DNA of 64,000 bases, taken from Streptomyces sp. NBC_00236 (GTDB lineage Bacteria > Actinomycetota > Actinomycetes > Streptomycetales > Streptomycetaceae). Every line of letters starts with the position of its first letter. The stretch's first letter is position 1. A program made the translations under genes and the position numbers. Of this stretch, positions 12,561 through 41,357 are shown piece after piece. The notes below the pieces were generated by a model. It was given only the letters and a program-made list of their open reading frames with translations, was not told the origin of the DNA and did not search any database. The stretch is from NCBI RefSeq assembly GCF_036195045.1, contig NZ_CP108100.1, positions 2,914,001-2,978,000 of the forward strand, in the 5' to 3' direction.

Positions 12561-14477
12561 ATGCACGGAATACGTACCGGGCGCGCCTCCGGAAGACGCG
12601 TCCGCTCAGCGGCCCTGACCGGCCTCACCGCCCTGACCCTCGTTCTCACGACGGCCGTCACGGGCCAGGCGGCAGAGCAGCCCCCCTCCCCGGCGACCAC
12701 GACGTCGGCCACGAAGGCCGCCGGCACCAGTAGCGAGACCAGCACACTCGCGGTCGGCTCCGGTGAGGACTGCACCGCCACCGCGCCGGGCTCCAAGGAG
12801 CGCCGCGCCGGTGCCGTCGAGTCCTGTGTGACGGTCACCCCCGCCCCGGCGAAGGCCGAGGCCCGCACCGGTTTCGCCGCCACCGCCACCGGCGACGTCG
12901 GAAGCTGCGACATCACCAACCCCGGCAGCTACAGCTACGAGCGCTTCTCGTACTGCGTGACCGGAATCAACGTCACCTACATCCTCCGCAACGCCAACGG
13001 CGTGGAGATCGGCCGCGGCACCCTGGCGGTCTCCACCGGCGGCGACCTCTCCGCGACCGCCACGACCTGGAGCGAACAGGTCACCGTCACGATGACCAGC
13101 GCCGCCGGCGATGTCACCGCCCTGGACGCCAAGTTCCGCGCCTCCTGCACCGCCGGCTGCACCGCCACCAAGACCGCCCCCTGGTACAACAGCGACCTCG
13201 TCGTCGGGAAGACCCTCACCGGCACCGTCACCTACTCCTCGCCGCAGACGACGGGCTCCTCCGCCTCCTTCCTCACGTCGTACGCGATGTACGTGACGTC
13301 CCCGGGTGCGACGGCGGTCGACCCGAACGCGTCATGGAAGAACGCGCGTCAGATCAGGTGCGACGACGCGGTCGGGGGCACTTCGGTGGCGGGGTGTGCG
13401 GTCCCCTCGATCACGCCTGTCGTGCCGATGGACACCCGCACCTCGGGCCAGGGCGCCGCGGTGGCCGCCTACGTGTGGGCCCAGACGAACCTGGACGATC
13501 ACTGGGGGCGCGACAAGCTCCTGACCCGGGCGACGAGCGGCATTTCTGATCGCGCGAACAGGACCTGCGGCAGCTTCACGGCCATCGACATCATTCCGGA
13601 CGACACCTGCGCCGGCTTTCCCTTCGCGGAGACACAGGAAGGCGGCATCGACGGCTCCCAGTGTGCCGAGGTCATTCCCAGCTTCAGCAACGGCGGTTGG
13701 GATTTCACCGCGCTGAACGGCGGTTCGGACCTGGATCCCACCACCCCTTGCGTGCGGGCCCACGTCCCGGCCGGCAACAAGAGTTTCGCCGATACCCAAC
13801 TCACCTCGGGATTCCAGGCCCAGAGAGTGATCGACGCCGATCAGTTCGAGCTGAAGGTCACGGCGACATCCCCCGGCTCCTGCCTGAACAGCCCGCCGTC
13901 AGGCTCCCGGCAGTCCGGCCGCGGGTGGATCAAGAACACCACTGAGACGGTCCCCCACATCAACAGGACCGACCCGTCCAGCCCGGCCGGGGAGCGGGCG
14001 AGCGTGGCTCAGGCCTGCCTCGGTAACCCGTACGAGCTGGGAAGCGACGCCACGGGCGGGGAGATCACCGGGTGGCAGGATGCCCAGGCGTTCGCCGCGC
14101 TCCCCGGCGTGCCTACGGCCGGGCTCGCCCGATGCCACCTGATCGCCAATGTCTTCGGTGGCACCGGCCTGGTCGGAGACGGCGGGCTGACCAACCTCGT
14201 TCCCTGCTGGCAGGTGGGAATGAATACGGGAACACCGAGTATGCGGACCCACGAGGCCGAAGTGGTCAACGAGCTGGATGCCGACGATTTCGGTCCGAAC
14301 GACTCGATCTTCTATGAGGTGACACCCGTCTACGAGAGCGCCGACAGTACGATCCCCATTGGGGTGAACATGACCGGTACGCTGGTGCGGGCGAACGGAT
14401 GGTCACATCCGGTTTTCGACGACGAATTCATCCCCAATACCCAGGGCAATAGCGGAAGTTACAACCTGGGAAACTGA
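12561..14477 (+). CDS. secreted nuclease with NucA/NucB-like and DNA/RNA non-specific endonuclease motifs
   Basis: A 638-residue exoprotein. Start ATG 12561 follows GGAAAG and gives a Sec signal cleaved near GQAAE. Residues about 100-240 form a Cys-containing beta region. The middle resembles NucA/NucB (RCDDAVGG…GCAVPS, then TCAGFPFAETQEGG near residue 353), but the usual catalytic DEYPFA reads AGFPFA. Near residue 523 RCHLIANVFGGTG, TNLVPCWQ and MRTHEAEV match the beta-beta-alpha-metal core of DNA/RNA non-specific endonucleases, with His of HLIA as the expected base. The second domain is thus the probable active one. It sits between the ALF protein and a DUF1963-like gene. GC bias drops towards the 3' end, hinting at separate origin of the C-terminal part. 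Confidence 0.75.
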   Translation: MHGIRTGRASGRRVRSAALTGLTALTLVLTTAVTGQAAEQPPSPATTTSATKAAGTSSETSTLAVGSGEDCTATAPGSKERRAGAVESCVTVTPAPAKAEARTGFAATATGDVGSCDITNPGSYSYERFSYCVTGINVTYILRNANGVEIGRGTLAVSTGGDLSATATTWSEQVTVTMTSAAGDVTALDAKFRASCTAGCTATKTAPWYNSDLVVGKTLTGTVTYSSPQTTGSSASFLTSYAMYVTSPGATAVDPNASWKNARQIRCDDAVGGTSVAGCAVPSITPVVPMDTRTSGQGAAVAAYVWAQTNLDDHWGRDKLLTRATSGISDRANRTCGSFTAIDIIPDDTCAGFPFAETQEGGIDGSQCAEVIPSFSNGGWDFTALNGGSDLDPTTPCVRAHVPAGNKSFADTQLTSGFQAQRVIDADQFELKVTATSPGSCLNSPPSGSRQSGRGWIKNTTETVPHINRTDPSSPAGERASVAQACLGNPYELGSDATGGEITGWQDAQAFAALPGVPTAGLARCHLIANVFGGTGLVGDGGLTNLVPCWQVGMNTGTPSMRTHEAEVVNELDADDFGPNDSIFYEVTPVYESADSTIPIGVNMTGTLVRANGWSHPVFDDEFIPNTQGNSGSYNLGN

Positions 14478-14508
14478 CTTAGGTCAGTTCGTGCCATCGG
14501 GAGCAATC

Positions 14509-15564
14509 ATGAGTATCACTACGCCACCGCGGCCGCACGACGTGACCGCGCTCTTCCCTCAACTTGCCCCGCTGGCACGCACGGCGACCCGCCTGCACCC
14601 GCGGCCCGGGTCGCCGACCATGCACGACAGCTCCGTCGGCGGACCACTCCTGTGGCCCGCCGACGAGCCATGGCCCCACTGCGCGGGGCCCCACGTACGG
14701 TACGGACGGCAGCTGGCCCTCTCCCCGGCCGACGTCCGGTGGGAGCGGCGCATCCGGGCGGAACTGACCGGCCGGCCGTGCAGCGACCCCGATCTCCCCC
14801 TGGCCGCCCGGTACACGCCTGAAGAAGCAGCGATCGCGAAGCGGATCAAGGCTGGACGCCCATGGCCCGAGGGGCCCGTCGCCATGCTTCCCATGGCCCA
14901 GCTGTACGTGCGCGATGTTCCCGGCCTGCGCCCGCCCGGGCAGTCCGAGGCCGATCTGCTCCAGGTGCTCTGGTGTCCCTTCGACCACCCGGCGAACCCC
15001 ACGACCACATTGCGCTGGCGGTCCACCGCCGAGATCACCAACGTACTCGACGCACCACCGGAGCCGTCCGCGATGCAATCCCGCGGCTACCTGCCGGAGC
15101 CGTGCCTGCTCGCACCGGAACAGATCACCGAATACCCCGACCCCTTGGAGCTGAGCAAGGAGCTGCGAGAGATACTGCTCGACTGGTCCAACTGGCAGGC
15201 GGCCGGAGCGGCGGTCGACATTTCCTACTGGGTCGATCCGGGTGACTTCTACGCGAGCCAACTGTCCGTCGCCCCCGGCTGGAAGGTCGGCGGCTGGACC
15301 CGCTGGGGGCTCACCGACCCCATGCCCCGGCACTGCCCGGAATGCGGCACCTCCACAGACCCGCTGCTGACCATCGCCGGCTCCGAATGGAGTGCGAACA
15401 CCAAGGACTGGGCCCCTGACGAGGACGGGGCAAACCCCACCTCGCCCCTCCCACTGCCCACGTCCCAACATCCCACCGAGCTCGACATCGCCCGCGGCTA
15501 CAACCTGCAGCTCCACGCCTGCCCGGTCTCGGTCGACCATCCCCACATCGAACTGATCCAGTAG
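14509..15564 (+). CDS. DUF1963-like cytosolic protein, candidate immunity partner
   Basis: A 351-residue protein without signal peptide, starting 31 bp after the nuclease stop, so in the same transcript. GGPLLWPADEPWPHC, MLPMAQLYVRDVPGL and LLQVLWCPFDHP resemble the pattern of DUF1963/YwqG-like proteins (WP…P followed by Q…R…P.LPPG). A single CPECG knuckle lies near residue 280. DUF1963-like proteins occur beside toxins in several bacteria, and a cytosolic protein downstream of a secreted nuclease fits an immunity role, but nothing in the sequence proves this. The start at 14509 (MSITTPP) is preferred over a GTG 18 bp upstream because GGGAG lies just ahead of it. Confidence 0.6.
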   Translation: MSITTPPRPHDVTALFPQLAPLARTATRLHPRPGSPTMHDSSVGGPLLWPADEPWPHCAGPHVRYGRQLALSPADVRWERRIRAELTGRPCSDPDLPLAARYTPEEAAIAKRIKAGRPWPEGPVAMLPMAQLYVRDVPGLRPPGQSEADLLQVLWCPFDHPANPTTTLRWRSTAEITNVLDAPPEPSAMQSRGYLPEPCLLAPEQITEYPDPLELSKELREILLDWSNWQAAGAAVDISYWVDPGDFYASQLSVAPGWKVGGWTRWGLTDPMPRHCPECGTSTDPLLTIAGSEWSANTKDWAPDEDGANPTSPLPLPTSQHPTELDIARGYNLQLHACPVSVDHPHIELIQ

Positions 15565-15640
15565 CCGGTACGCCGGGAGCCGCCTGACATGTCGCGCTCG
15601 CCGCTCGCCGCCGGCCCGGGAGAATCCCCGTCCGCGCCGC

Positions 15641-16126
15641 TCACACGGCCGGGCGGTCGGCCCCGGCCCCTTCGGTGGAGTTCACGCCGAAGGCGTGCGC
15701 CCCGCCGTCGATGGTCCACCCGGCGGCAAGCGGCATGAGGTCCCTGATCCGGACGCTCCGCAGGCCGTCGGCCGTGGGAAGAATGACCCTGATACCCGGG
15801 TGGTAGTCGAAGAGCACCTGACGGTCCCGGCCGCACGGGTCGAAGACGCCCCGTTCGAGATTGCCCACCGCGACGATCGTCGTGAGCTCCCTGGCACCGG
15901 ACGCGCGGGCGTGCCCCAGCGCGACGAGTTCGGCGCACGGGCCGCCGGTGAAGTGGTAGACGTTGATGCCGCCGTAGATCTTTCCGTCGGCCCCGCGCAC
16001 GGCGGCGCCCATGGTGTGCGCCCCCTCCTCACCATCGGTGTTCGCGTCGACAATGCGCTTGGCGAAGGCGATGAGTTCGAGGTCCTCGGATGTCAGCTCG
16101 CGGCAGGGAATGTCCATGCCGCGCAT
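15641..16126 (-). CDS. cytidine deaminase-like protein with altered zinc motif
   Basis: A 161-residue member of the cytidine deaminase superfamily, which hydrolyses the amino group of cytidine (or blasticidin-type nucleosides). The first zinc motif GGPCAELVALGHA is intact (Cys ligand and catalytic Glu). The second motif, normally PCGxCRQ, reads DPCGRDRQVLFDYHP: one of the two zinc Cys is Asp. The enzyme may still bind zinc through Asp or be inactive. Starts at 16126 (MRGMD) or 16117 (MDIPC) are equally plausible; neither has a clear ribosome site and transcription may begin close to the ATG. It is monocistronic and convergent to the DUF1963-like gene. Confidence 0.7.
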   Translation of the reverse strand: MRGMDIPCRELTSEDLELIAFAKRIVDANTDGEEGAHTMGAAVRGADGKIYGGINVYHFTGGPCAELVALGHARASGARELTTIVAVGNLERGVFDPCGRDRQVLFDYHPGIRVILPTADGLRSVRIRDLMPLAAGWTIDGGAHAFGVNSTEGAGADRPAV

Positions 16127-16321
16127 GATAGGCCGCGCCCTCAAGCAGCGGTTCCCGCTCAACGTCCGTGCGGGTGCTCACTTCGGCAGCGTGGAGGCGT
16201 CGCCCACCCCAACGCTTGGCCGGCACCGCACCGTGACGAGTGAGAGATGAGAGCTGCCTCCAACTCTTCCCCGGCCGCCGCGGCCGCCGCAGTCGCCGCC
16301 GGACCAGGACCGTCCCAGAAG

Positions 16322-16354
16322 TCCCGGCTCTCCCGGCTCTACCGGCTCTCCCGG
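16322..16354. repeat. short CCGGCTCT tandem repeat
   Basis: Four imperfect copies of a 9-10 base CTCCCGGCT unit lie 20 bp from the tRNA-like gene. No coding content is seen between 16127 and the tRNA-like gene. Confidence 0.6.
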
Positions 16355-16373
16355 AAAGCAGCGATGCCGGCCG

Positions 16374-16492
16374 CGGTGCCGACGGGATTCGAACCCGCGG
16401 ACGGATAGGGGCAGGCCCGCCCCGTCCCCATCAGTCGCCGTGAGCGGGACCTCGCTCACGCCGATCGCAATGGGCCGCTCTGCCACGGCACC
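16374..16492 (-). tRNA. abnormal tRNA-like gene (Ser-like body, no normal anticodon loop)
   Basis: On the minus strand a perfect 7-bp acceptor stem forms between GGTGCCG (16492-16486) and CGGCACC (16381-16375), discriminator G16374. The D-arm GGCAGAGCGGCC…TGC is tRNA-Ser-like. The T-arm is GCGGG-TTCGAAT-CCCGT. A long GC-rich variable arm lies between. The presumed anticodon stem ATCGG (16465-16461)/CTGAT (16434-16430) encloses 26 bases instead of 7, made of an 8-bp hairpin (CGTGAGCG/CGCTCACG, loop AGGTCC) plus GCGA. No CCA is encoded. At 119 nt it is far longer than a class II tRNA. It could be a tRNA-derived regulatory RNA, an interrupted tRNA-Ser or a decayed gene. Confidence 0.55.
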
Positions 16493-16747
16493 ACGGCCTG
16501 CGAGACGGCGCGCCATCCCGCTCCGCCTCAAGGTAGACGACCGTCCGGTGTACGGCGAGCCGTTGTCCGGCACCGGCGGCCACTGCTGAAGTGCCACGGA
16601 AGTTGCGCCGGAACGACGGAACGACTTCTCGTGAACATCAGCCGGGCCCGTTGGCCCATGACCGCTGCCGCGGAGGTCGCCAACCCCGAATCCGTCCGAT
16701 GTATTGACGTGCCCCTGACTCAATGGCTTCATAGGAGCGCATAACTG

Positions 16748-16761
16748 TGGGAGCGCTCCCA
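16748..16761. promoter_or_regulatory. CebR-type operator upstream of mannanase
   Basis: The perfect 14-bp palindrome TGGGAGCGCTCCCA lies 61 bp upstream of the mannanase start. It matches the operator recognised by the LacI-family cellobiose sensor CebR (CelR) of streptomycetes and thermobifidas. A possible TTGACG at 16704-16709 lies upstream. The box would repress the gene until cello-oligosaccharides appear. Confidence 0.85.
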
Positions 16762-16822
16762 CACAGCTTGGAAACGTCTGTCGATGCTCAGCTCTTGATC
16801 CCGCTCACCCCCTGGAGCCGCA

Positions 16823-18493
16823 GTGAGAACAGCAAGAAGCACGACGAAGAAGAACCCGGCGCACAAGCATCCCGTCACCGCCCTCCTGACCGCCCTGGTC
16901 ACCCTCCTCGGGCTCCTCGCCCTCGGCGGCCTCGCCCCGGCGCAGGCCGCCACATCCGCCGCGACCGGGCTGCACATCAGCGACGGCCGGCTGGTCGAGG
17001 GCAACGGCAACGACTTCGTCATGCGCGGGGTCAACCACGCCCATACCTGGTACCCCGGCGAGACCCAGTCGCTGGCCGACATCAAGGCGACGGGCGCCAA
17101 CACCGTCCGCGTCGTGCTCTCCGACGGCTTCCGCTGGACCAGGAACGGGCCCGACGACGTGGCCGCCGTCATCGCCCAGTGCAAGGCCAACCGGCTCATC
17201 TGCGTACTCGAGGTGCACGACACCACGGGGTACGGGGAGGACGCCGCGGCCGGCACGCTCGATCACGCCGCCGACTACTGGATCAGCCTGAAGGACGTCC
17301 TCGCCGGCCAGGAGGACTACGTCATCATCAACATCGGCAACGAGCCCTGGGGCAACACGAATCCGGCCGGCTGGACCGCACCCACGACCGCCGCGATCCA
17401 GAAGCTGCGCACCGCCGGGTTCGCGCACACGATCATGGTGGACGCGCCCAACTGGGGCCAGGACTGGCAGGGCGTCATGCGGGACAACGCCCAGGCCGTG
17501 TACGACGCCGACACCACCGGCAACCTGATCTTCTCGATCCACATGTACAGCGTCTACAACACGGCCCAGAAGGTCACCGACTACCTGAACGCCTTCGTGG
17601 ACGCCGGACTGCCGCTGCTCATCGGGGAGTTCGGGGGACCGGCCGACCAGTACGGCGACCCCGACGAGGACACGATGATGGCCACCGCCGAGCAGCTGCA
17701 GCTCGGTTACATCGCCTGGTCCTGGAGCGGCAACACCGACCCGATCCTCGACCTGACGATCGGTTTCGACCCCACGCAGCTCAGCTCCTGGGGTGAGCGC
17801 ATCTTCCACGGCGCCAACGGCATCGCCCAGACCTCCCGCGAGGCGACCGTCTTCGGCGGCGCCTCCGAGGACACCGAGGCCCCCACCGCTCCGGGTACCC
17901 CGGTCGCCTCCGCGGTGACGGACACCTCCGCCGCCCTGACCTGGACCGCGTCGTCCGACAACGTTGCCGTCGCCGGCTACGCCGTCGTCCGCGTCAACGG
18001 CACCACGGAGACGGCCGTCGCCGCCTCCGCCACCACCGGCGTCTCCGTCACCGGCCTCACCGCCGACACCGCGTACACGTTCGCCGTGTACGCCCGCGAC
18101 GCGGCGGGGAACCGCTCGGCGCGCTCGGCCACGGTGACCGTCACCACGGACGAGGGCGGCACCACACCGGGCGTCGGCTGCTCCGTCGGCTACCGCGTCG
18201 TGAACCAGTGGTCGGGTGGCTTCCAGGGTGAGATCACCATCCGCAACACCGGCACCACCACGATCGACGGCTGGACGCTCGGCTTCGCCTTCGCCAACGG
18301 CCAGACCGTCACCAACATGTGGGGCGGAACCCCCACCCAGACCGGCGGTTCGGTGAACGTCGCGCCCGCGTCGTACACCTCCACGATCGCCGCGAACGGC
18401 TCGGTCACGGTCGGCTTCACCGGCAGCCAGAGCGGTACGAACGCGGCCCCGGCCGCGTTCACCCTCAGCGGCGCCACCTGCGCCGCGAGCTGA
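16823..18493 (+). CDS. endo-1,4-beta-mannanase GH5 with FN3 and CBM2
   Basis: A 556-residue secreted glycanase that should cleave internal beta-1,4 links of mannan or glucomannan. Start is GTG with TGGAG upstream. Signal peptide runs to about 42 (LAPAQA). The GH5 catalytic domain (about 47-350) matches the Streptomyces ManA type (GH5_8): FVMRGVNHAHTWYPGET, LICVLEVHDTTGYGEDAAAG, acid/base Glu174 in NIGNEPWGN and nucleophile Glu269 in LLIGEFGG. A fibronectin type III module (about 354-442) links to a C-terminal CBM2-type cellulose-binding module (about 451-556, SVGYRVVNQWSGGFQGEITI). The CebR box suggests co-regulation with cellulases, so the enzyme may be released on plant cell walls. Confidence 0.9.
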   Translation: MRTARSTTKKNPAHKHPVTALLTALVTLLGLLALGGLAPAQAATSAATGLHISDGRLVEGNGNDFVMRGVNHAHTWYPGETQSLADIKATGANTVRVVLSDGFRWTRNGPDDVAAVIAQCKANRLICVLEVHDTTGYGEDAAAGTLDHAADYWISLKDVLAGQEDYVIINIGNEPWGNTNPAGWTAPTTAAIQKLRTAGFAHTIMVDAPNWGQDWQGVMRDNAQAVYDADTTGNLIFSIHMYSVYNTAQKVTDYLNAFVDAGLPLLIGEFGGPADQYGDPDEDTMMATAEQLQLGYIAWSWSGNTDPILDLTIGFDPTQLSSWGERIFHGANGIAQTSREATVFGGASEDTEAPTAPGTPVASAVTDTSAALTWTASSDNVAVAGYAVVRVNGTTETAVAASATTGVSVTGLTADTAYTFAVYARDAAGNRSARSATVTVTTDEGGTTPGVGCSVGYRVVNQWSGGFQGEITIRNTGTTTIDGWTLGFAFANGQTVTNMWGGTPTQTGGSVNVAPASYTSTIAANGSVTVGFTGSQSGTNAAPAAFTLSGATCAAS

Positions 18494-18499
18494 TCCGGC

Positions 18500-18542
18500 G
18501 CGTGTGCCTCCACAAGTGCCGCGCCGCTGTGGAGGCACACGC
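18500..18542. terminator. 15-bp perfect bidirectional hairpin
   Basis: GCGTGTGCCTCCACA (18500-18514) pairs perfectly with 18528-18542, loop 13 bases. It lies between the convergent mannanase and DHFR-like genes and can serve both. Confidence 0.85.
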
Positions 18543-18556
18543 CCCGGCCGGGCCGG

Positions 18557-19171
18557 TCAGTTGCTGACGGTGAGCGTCGTGGCGTTGCGCTCGTACGTCA
18601 GGTACGCGGCCCCGCTCGCCAGGACCTTGTGGCTCCCGAGCGCCCAGGCGGCCGGCTCGAACGAGGCCTCCCGGCCGAACAGCGGGATGCCCGCACCGAT
18701 CGTCATCGGGCTCAACTTGACGATGAGCGTGTCGATCTCGGTGTACAGGGAAGCGGCCAGCTCGCCACCGCCGACGAGCCAGATGTCCTTGCCGTCCTCC
18801 TGCTTCAGCTCCTTCACGCGCGCGACCGGATCGGTCGCGACGATCTCCACGGCGGGGTCGGGGCTCTCGCCCAGCGTGCGGGAGAAGACGAGGTGCCGCA
18901 GATGCGGATAGGCGTCCGTGACACCGGCCTTGAGACCGATCTCGTAGGAGCGGCGCCCTTCGACGACCGTGTCGAAGTGTGTGCCCTCCGCCGTGATCGA
19001 CAGCGCGGCGCGGGCCGGCCCGGGAAGGGTCTCCGGGTACTCGGCGATCAAGTGCGCGACGTAGTCCTCCGGAATCGGCCAGAACCCGTCCGGACCGGTC
19101 GGGTCGGCGCCGTCCGGACCGGCGATGAAGCCGTCGAGGGTGGAGGCGATGAAGTACACGAGCTTGCGCAC
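18557..19171 (-). CDS. dihydrofolate-reductase-like (RibD C-terminal domain) family protein
   Basis: A 204-residue NADPH-binding-type protein of the DHFR/RibD superfamily. It starts VRKLVYFIASTLDGFIAGPD (GTG at 19171, with AAAGG upstream), the standard start of these proteins; a longer frame upstream lacks homology. TVVEGRRSYEIG, HLVFSRTL and DIWLVGGGELAASLY give the nucleotide-binding motifs, and the C terminus LGSHKVLASGAAYLTYER is typical. Most members are uncharacterised and are not true folate reductases. It is monocistronic and convergent with the mannanase. Confidence 0.8.
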   Translation of the reverse strand: MRKLVYFIASTLDGFIAGPDGADPTGPDGFWPIPEDYVAHLIAEYPETLPGPARAALSITAEGTHFDTVVEGRRSYEIGLKAGVTDAYPHLRHLVFSRTLGESPDPAVEIVATDPVARVKELKQEDGKDIWLVGGGELAASLYTEIDTLIVKLSPMTIGAGIPLFGREASFEPAAWALGSHKVLASGAAYLTYERNATTLTVSN

Positions 19172-41256: not shown

Positions 41257-41271
41257 GCTAGTCGGCGATAT

Positions 41272-41346
41272 GCGCCCGCACGCCAACTGGTTTGAGCGGC
41301 GGCCTTTAGGTGGCCGTGTATGTCGGTTCGAATCCGACCGGGCGTA
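41272..41346 (+). tRNA. class I tRNA with TAG anticodon (Leu-type anticodon)
   Basis: Full cloverleaf: acceptor GCGCCCG (41272-41278)/CGGGCGT (41339-41345), discriminator A41346. The D-stem is CGC/GCG with GG in the loop. The anticodon stem is CGGCC/GGCCG with loop TTTAGGT and anticodon TAG (41307-41309). The variable loop is 5 nt (TGTAT), and the T-arm is GTCGG-TTCGAAT-CCGAC. UAG reads the Leu codon CUA, yet bacterial tRNA-Leu is class II with a long variable arm. Position 8 is C rather than the conserved U. CCA is not encoded. Confidence 0.8.
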
Positions 41347-41357
41347 CCCGACAGCGA

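Follow-up and report, generated by a model that had tools for sequence, protein, structure and literature searches.

What kind of gene has the body of a serine tRNA but a long hairpin in the place of the anticodon loop, so that no codon could be read in the ordinary way? This question is raised by a locus in Streptomyces sp. NBC_00236, within a stretch of 64,000 nucleotides (contig NZ_CP108100.1, positions 2,914,001 to 2,978,000; hereafter, the window, in which all positions below are counted). The candidate RNA gene occupies positions 16492 to 16374 on the minus strand (119 nt), and all parts of it described below are read from that strand. The general tRNA model of Rfam aligns over its full length with this tRNA-like body, passing over about 40 nt at the anticodon; the covariance-model scoring proposed in the original prediction, which was made from the sequence alone, gave 28.9 bits (E-value 0.005 for the 5 kb searched), 0.1 bit under the curated gathering cut-off of 29. 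ARAGORN called no tRNA at this element, nor did it report anything in the related loci L032, L104 and L279-L281. The tRNA model was the sole Rfam 15 family that matched this RNA at the loci searched, with scores of 28.9, 28.2, 29.9 and 32.6 bits for L001, L121, L114 and L119, respectively, against the same cut-off, and the phage copies discussed below were absent from its matches at E-values up to 0.5. Because ARAGORN misses the tested copies and the Rfam scores lie at the edge of the cut-off, this RNA may be overlooked or taken for an odd tRNA. The window holds another unusual tRNA-like gene (41271-41349, plus strand), reported by ARAGORN as a tRNA-Leu without a printed anticodon; its loop, read by eye as CUUUAGG, contains the triplet UUA, which would read the stop codon UAA.

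All the elements of a class II, tRNA-Ser-like body that had been predicted are present at the locus: a 7-bp acceptor stem (5' strand, 16486-16492; 3' strand, 16375-16381, with no encoded CCA), a D-arm (16467-16483), a T-arm with the loop UUCGAAU (16382-16398) and a long variable arm (16400-16432) that consists of an outer 6-bp and an inner 5-bp stem. Where an anticodon loop would be, the 8-bp hairpin CGUGAGCG/CGCUCACG was recovered as well, within a longer hairpin that replaces the anticodon arm (16433-16466). The proposed anticodon stem AUCGG/CUGAU did not survive comparison with the homologs: its outer A-U pair is A-C in seven of 10 copies, as judged by eye, its 3' half is part of the variable-arm stem GAYGGR/UCYGUC, and the base of the anticodon-position hairpin is UCG/CGA, beneath the 8-bp stem.

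To delineate the family, we searched for homologs at increasing phylogenetic distances. In a DNA search of 100 genomes, including that of the window, full-length homologs with 82-93% identity were detected in five other genomes of the same genus, one of which holds two copies. A covariance model initially built from ten copies produced matches in 55 of the 392 genomes of the genus, and 47 of these genomes were retained as carriers after sorting by hand: seven genomes with only an 87-nt match of the tRNA-Ser type (the one in G046 was checked with ARAGORN) and G203, with a truncated copy, were left out, and G109, G209 and G269, with damaged copies, were kept. Two copies each were found in G054, G357, G421 and G385, the last at contig ends. 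A larger model matched 28 of the 200 genomes of the family, in seven of its 17 genera; in 15 of these 28 genomes, from six genera, the matches score at least 118 bits, and the weakest ones resemble ordinary tRNAs (the one that was checked, L133, is a tRNA-Ser). Among the matches listed for a class-wide sample of 296 genomes, 158 of which had some match, nothing beyond the family exceeded 65.7 bits, and those of the best matches from outside the family that were checked, four in number (L144, L145, L147 and L161), are tRNA-Ser genes.

A pattern scan of the genome_contigs collection returned 109 stretches, 80 of which were scored with the model and 14 read by eye. All 47 scored loci labeled Streptomyces reached at least 91.5 bits, Streptomyces sp. 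SirexAA-E being one of the carriers, and the other carriers were Kitasatospora purpeofusca, two Yinghuangia, Actinacidiphila cocklensis and Embleya scabrispora; one locus labeled Microtetraspora glauca NRRL B-3735 appears to correspond to the same-genus genome G115. Plasmid records contain four copies, three from Streptomyces, including the plasmid of Streptomyces sp. NBC_01237, and one from Embleya. The RNA appears to be dispensable, as the majority of the genomes in the genus do without it. Several copies are truncated or decayed (L099, L100, L108 and L111), and one of these, L100, which sits in G109 at a locus of the window type and lacks the 5' half, indicates that loss of the RNA continues. 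A search for an empty site equivalent to the window locus in 61 genomes identified no other genome in which both flanks occur together. Taken together, the distribution of the relatives, which extends over several genera of the family and takes in a small transposable element, plasmids and a few phages, makes this look like a working RNA family rather than a dead tRNA gene. The original prediction was to be refuted if the element were confined to this genome and in decay; its presence in 47 of 392 genomes and the covariation described next speak against both.

From 56 matches, we aligned 49 copies, each with a 32-nt leader and a 12-nt trailer. The seven that were excluded are a tRNA-Ser (L112), a truncated copy (L111), three deleted or decayed copies (L099, L100 and L108) and the near-identical L085 and L094, both from G385, with leaders cut at the contig end. 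The alignment supports a structure of 54 pairs in which 94.0% of the cells are standard pairs, compared to 85.5% in shuffles, and sliding the partners out of register brings pairing down to 38.7-50.0%. The check for covariation in other Streptomyces that had been suggested for this element thus has a clear outcome: 204 cells show two-sided changes, compared to the shuffle mean of 47.9, such changes occur somewhere in 31 of the 54 pairs, and the covariation score is 0.311 versus 0.158 in shuffles; none of 500 shuffles attained any of the five measures, although relatedness of the copies may inflate such counts. Two-sided changes are found in seven of the eight helices, the T-stem being nearly invariant. 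By part, pairing amounts to 93.9% in a hairpin 5' of the body, 97.3% in the acceptor helix, 95.2% in the D-stem, 90.3% in the anticodon-position hairpin (with two-sided changes at eight of 10 pairs), 83.6% and 94.7% in the variable-arm stems, and 99.2% in the T-stem.

The folded RNA extends beyond the tRNA body on both sides. The acceptor helix comprises 13 bp, that is, the seven tRNA pairs and six outer pairs between the leader (GGCCGU, 16493-16498) and the trailer (GCGGCC, 16369-16374), whose first base is tRNA position 73. At least five of the six outer pairs form in 47 of the 49 copies; in loci taken from other genomes, the corresponding numbers are 6 of 33 for tRNA-Ser genes and 10 of 87 for tRNA genes in general. 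Further upstream, the leader folds into the 5' hairpin (16500-16521), with two-sided changes at three of six pairs, that is also present in the minimum-energy fold. In 39 of the 49 copies, the 5' hairpin contains a palindrome of six bases (GCGCGC and CGCGCG, and also CACGUG and UGCGCA), compared to a shuffle mean of 23.1 and maximum of 31; these palindromes could permit formation of dimers, and are partly explained by the G+C-rich composition.

These observations bear on the most trivial explanation, namely, that a tRNA-Ser gene happened to receive an insertion in its anticodon loop and is now decaying as a pseudogene. The score barely under the Rfam cut-off, the patchy occurrence in the genus and the existence of decayed relatives would fit such an origin. 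However, a decaying gene would not be expected to show two-sided changes in nearly all its helices, an invariant elbow and a promoter-like box at a fixed position (see below) across many species, and given the covariation over the 49 copies, we reject this explanation as extremely improbable. The conservation instead supports the original suggestion of a tRNA mimic or another non-translating RNA, and we conclude that, on comparative evidence, the locus is best described as a predicted structured, non-decoding RNA gene of about 165 nt that is derived from a serine tRNA.

The central feature of the predicted fold is a contact between the two long arms. The loop of the anticodon-position hairpin, AGGUCC (16452-16447), is complementary to the loop of the variable arm, GGGCCU (16418-16413). 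Across the 49 copies, 97.6% of the cells in this kissing helix are paired, with two-sided changes at five of the six pairs; all six pairs form in 43 copies, and one or two are broken in the remaining six. The compensated loop pairs include GUGCCU/GGGCAC in L097, AGGCUC/GAGUCU in L034, AGGUUC/GAACCU in L103 and GGGUCC/GGACCC in L102. The kissing pairs were left out of the search models, and in 40 copies outside the alignment, 222 of 237 kissing cells are paired (93.7%), a value above the maximum of 92.4% seen in 1000 partner shuffles (mean 89.7%); because the loops resemble each other, this margin is narrow. In the automatic alignment, 13 of these 40 copies have fewer than six kissing pairs, partly through misalignment. 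Of 48 Streptomycetaceae sequences, 24 satisfy a strict rule that calls for two hairpins whose loops are complementary, compared to 0.58 expected from shuffles. A relaxed version, passed by 43 of 48 compared to 34 expected, is accordingly a weak test, so that the strict rule and the covariation carry the weight.

Comparison of the copies thus shows the predicted kissing contact to be maintained through compensatory changes. We infer that the contact forms within one molecule; pairing between two molecules would also be compatible with the sequences, and the one-molecule arrangement is favored by the adjacency of the arms and their similar length. As originally proposed, ordinary codon reading can be discounted: there is no anticodon, and its position is taken by a long hairpin predicted to pair with the variable arm.

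Related RNAs are also encoded in phage genomes. When the viral_contigs collection was scanned for a tRNA pattern in two parts, three stretches were obtained, all with the layout of this RNA family as judged by eye. Two of these, L279 (73.2 bits) and L281 (69.5 bits), are akin to the bacterial family in sequence and form five of the six kissing pairs each. The third, L280, scores 46.7 bits, inside the range of ordinary tRNA-Ser, and its loops, read by eye as CUGCGA/UCGCAG, form six perfect pairs, with a sequence unlike that of the bacterial family. L279 and L281 pass neither the strict nor the relaxed two-hairpin rule, and L280 is outside the tested set. Matches to PHROGs suggest that these contigs come from tailed phages: terminase is matched in L279 and L281, and both the portal and the major head protein in L280 and L281. 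Neither the window RNA nor two of the phage copies had a match in a collection of phage records.

We also considered whether kissing arms are used generally by tRNA-like RNAs of phages, and dropped this idea: in 41 odd tRNA-like phage sequences, brought up by looser patterns, one passed the strict rule (0.18 expected) and eight passed the relaxed rule (7.3 expected), and given that there is no set-wide excess, the kissing claim is not extended to them. Complementary loops were seen in tRNA-like sequences of the viral contigs L358 (CCAGUC/GACUGG), L475 (GUACCU/AGGUAC) and L311 (GGUGACUGC/GCAGUCGCC), single cases to which the set-wide control gives no backing. Other viral contigs encode different kinds of unusual class II tRNA-like sequences. 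In L340 (388 kb) and L341 (101 kb), the anticodon arm is a long hairpin with a GAAA tip, that is, a further tRNA body without an anticodon but with a different plan, and in L383 and L388, the anticodon loops, read by eye, carry CUA and UUA, which would correspond to stop codons.

The part of the tRNA that is most strictly retained is the elbow. The bases U8, G18, G19, U54, U55 and C56 are present in all 49 copies, A58 in 48, and the T-loop consensus UUCRAAU also in 48. The tRNA elbow is known as a recognition site of many tRNA-binding factors. The decoding end is lost, with no 7-nt anticodon loop with U33 seen by eye in the aligned copies, and the acceptor end is altered: unlike the unpaired G73 of a functional tRNA-Ser, position 73 is engaged in a standard pair, with the base preceding the acceptor stem, in 45 of the 49 copies. 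The base that follows the 7-bp acceptor strand is G in 35 copies, C in nine, A in four and U in one; these numbers differ from the count in the alignment column (G 41, C 5, A 3) because six copies hold an extra base at position 73.

The acceptor end is where the RNA can be weighed as a serine carrier, that is, a molecule that retains a tRNA-Ser-like function. The class II body is close to tRNA-Ser, and the prevalence of G after the acceptor strand is also what serine-tRNA function would favor. Nevertheless, position 73 is nearly always paired, the following base is C, A or U in 14 of the 49 copies, and pairing between leader and trailer is far above that of tRNA-Ser genes; moreover, the kissing contact would swing the variable arm toward the anticodon arm, and outside one clade, there is no common neighbor, apart from scattered clusters. 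We therefore consider a serine carrier improbable, although it is, together with a role in transposition (see below), one of the two main rivals of the reading that we prefer. In short, compared to canonical tRNA-Ser, the RNA shares the elbow nucleotides, the sequences of the D- and T-arms and the long variable arm, but differs in having no anticodon loop, in the kissing arms, the 13-bp acceptor helix and the 5' hairpin, and in the variable base after the acceptor strand.

The genomic setting suggests independent expression. A box of the form TAnnnT begins at -44 to -40 relative to the body in 47 of the 49 copies, whereas 200 shuffles of the flanks gave 5.0 such copies on average and at most 13; in the window, this is the -10-like box TACCTT (16530-16535), 43 to 38 nt upstream of the body. 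All 51 copies examined are intergenic, and no gene predicted around them with a simple custom gene finder overlaps the RNA; in 16 of 50 copies, the first gene downstream shares the strand of the RNA. Neighbors are retained in one clade only, which consists of seven syntenic genomes with genes for TetR, GH3, carbon-nitrogen hydrolase and M4 peptidase; outside it, the largest cluster of neighboring proteins covers seven of 56 loci, and its distance from the RNA varies. In seven genomes of the genus, one conserved chromosomal site, surrounded by carbon-nitrogen hydrolase, TetR and GH3 genes, is occupied by a divergent subfamily (L103-L107, L109 and L110), and no transposon ends were found around its members. 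Given the intergenic position, the mix of strands and the lack of conserved neighbors outside one clade, the RNA looks like a free-standing gene, as far as genomic context goes. In the window, a near-perfect hairpin (18494-18548) directly follows a gene for a GH5 cellulase with a CBM2 domain (16823-18493); it has a weak Rfam match to a microRNA family (26.3 bits versus the cut-off of 59) and is most likely a terminator.

The same data address the possibility that the element acts in cis on the gene downstream, either as a leader or as a signal for processing. Messenger RNAs that contain tRNA-like structures can be cleaved there by RNase P, and by eye, two phage copies directly follow a terminator-like hairpin, one of which (L281) also directly precedes a ribosome-binding site and start codon. 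In Streptomycetaceae, however, the gene downstream is co-directional in less than a third of the copies and is not conserved beyond one clade, so that neither orientation nor neighbors fit, and we reject a cis-acting role as quite improbable.

A distinct line of evidence connects the RNA to transposition. Of 91 copies, 14 lie inside a complete unit, which measures 313-322 bp and is bounded on either side by the inverted repeat GGCTCTGGCACAACTTCTGTGG, and eight more copies have one end only (up to six mismatches were permitted in this search; L178 and L122 are rows from a single contig). For a subset of 54 copies, left ends numbered 12 and right ends 14, compared to shuffle means of 0.07 and 0.03, respectively. 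Eight-bp target duplications, the kind generated by ISL3 elements, accompany several of the 14 units: five are exact, one matches at seven of eight positions, two at six of eight, and six units have none. Loci of ISL3-family transposases (PF01610) have ends that differ from those of the unit by four to six mismatches, and in G212, an RNA unit lies 8 nt from the end of an ISL3-type transposon (L451); an autonomous transposon with ends identical to those of the unit was searched for and not found. The window copy retains a remnant of the left inverted repeat (16594-16615; five mismatches in 22 positions), with no right end found (the best candidate has 11 mismatches); when 54 left flanks were shuffled 100 times, no match with five or fewer mismatches arose. 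Comparison of the flanks shows that part of the spread of the RNA took place on a non-autonomous transposable unit of the ISL3-like type. This unit resembles the MITEs mobilized by ISL3-family transposases in its terminal inverted repeats and 8-bp target duplications, and differs from them in bearing a putative folded RNA gene as cargo, with most copies of the RNA lying beyond any recognizable unit. G054, G212 and G357 contain short units of 141-142 bp that share the inverted repeats of the RNA-bearing unit but could not accommodate the RNA.

It might be argued, then, that the RNA is a component of the transposable unit that is required for ISL3-type movement, given the complete units with exact duplications and the similar ends of transposons with ISL3-family transposases in the same genomes. 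Against this stand the 77 of 91 copies for which there is no complete unit (some are cut by contig ends), the clade in which the RNA resides at a single syntenic site without a unit, the phage copies, and the short units with the same ends that have no room for the RNA. Accordingly, we regard a requirement of the RNA for transposition as improbable, slightly more so than a serine carrier and slightly less so than a cis-acting element.

Among the known RNAs, one of the closest parallels is provided by the bacterial Y RNAs. Y RNAs of the YrlA type are non-decoding tRNA mimics, and like the RNA described here, they are non-coding molecules with a tRNA-like domain in which the acceptor side continues into a longer stem. 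If the RNA were such a molecule, a Ro (TROVE) protein would bind it and use it to direct or gate a nuclease. A TROVE match is indeed found in 26 of the 47 carrier genomes, but also in 191 of the 392 genomes overall (Fisher p = 0.35), with the listed matches spanning only about 60-75 of the 442 model positions. Furthermore, the genome of the window, 99.99% complete in one contig, has no TROVE match; in a set of 37 carriers, 23 have a TROVE match, and in these the match is separated from the RNA by 700 kb or more, or is on a different contig; and there was no Rfam Y RNA match at E-values up to 1 for positions 14000-19000 of the window, or up to 0.5 for seven loci. Unlike the YrlA RNAs, the RNA described here is thus free of any TROVE association or Y RNA match and, to our knowledge, kissing long arms are not known in Y RNAs. 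In the absence of a TROVE association, a Ro-bound Y RNA is rejected as even a little less probable than a cis-acting leader; the Y RNAs retain their relevance as one already known case of non-decoding tRNA mimicry.

Some relatives of allo-tRNAs are another such case, according to a review (PMC7609411). As described there, allo-tRNAs and their relatives (Mukai et al. 2017) have serine-type bodies with unusual branches, and some were unusable for translation in E. coli. The likeness to our RNA lies in the serine-type body with unusual branches; the difference is that the allo-tRNAs described there have anticodons and acceptor branches of the 8/4 or 9/3 type (12 bp), whereas the RNA described here is of the 7/5 type with six outer pairs and no anticodon. 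The host groups named there are Clostridia, Proteobacteria and Acidobacteria (PMC7609411). Searches of the open-license PMC literature brought up no description of the present RNA and, as far as these searches go, what is new is the kissing between the arm at the anticodon position and the variable arm, along with carriage of the RNA as cargo on an ISL3-like unit.

Considering all of the above, the reading that we prefer, with a probability of roughly 0.6, is that the RNA is a trans-acting, non-decoding tRNA mimic. The part of the original prediction that stands is the non-decoding, tRNA-Ser-like body; it did not include the kissing contact, the acceptor extension, the 5' hairpin, the promoter-like box, the transposable unit or the phage copies. 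In the scenario that we envisage, the RNA would be transcribed alone and be stable, with the 13-bp acceptor helix and the docked arms creating a rigid, nuclease-resistant body. The locked arms and closed ends would keep it from maturation, charging and the ribosome, and the invariant elbow would be the part recognized by a partner, on which the RNA would act in trans. The partner would most likely be a tRNA-handling protein or RNP, such as RNase P, tRNA-modifying enzymes, seryl-tRNA synthetase, tRNA-cutting toxins or defense nucleases, and the RNA might occupy it as a decoy or as a scaffold; a role as a decoy alone is a tentative proposition that we consider less likely than not.

The setting for this activity could be conflict between mobile elements and their hosts, a guess from the occurrence of the RNA on phages, plasmids and transposable units, which fits such a role. 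More speculatively still, and in our estimate unlikely, the RNA could be the first known member of a class of conflict-type mobile tRNA mimics, in which a serine-tRNA body carried by a phage, plasmid or transposable unit, with its anticodon removed and its arms locked by kissing, would occupy tRNA-handling enzymes or tRNA-cutting defense nucleases, while itself being neither cut at the anticodon nor used for translation.

If the preferred reading holds, a tRNA gene has given rise to a separate RNA whose tertiary plan is new and that appears to be kept by selection across many species and moved by mobile elements. The fold is defined sufficiently for testing, with two six-base loops as the points of contact and, if the RNA binds tRNA-handling enzymes, it would become a tool for studying those enzymes.
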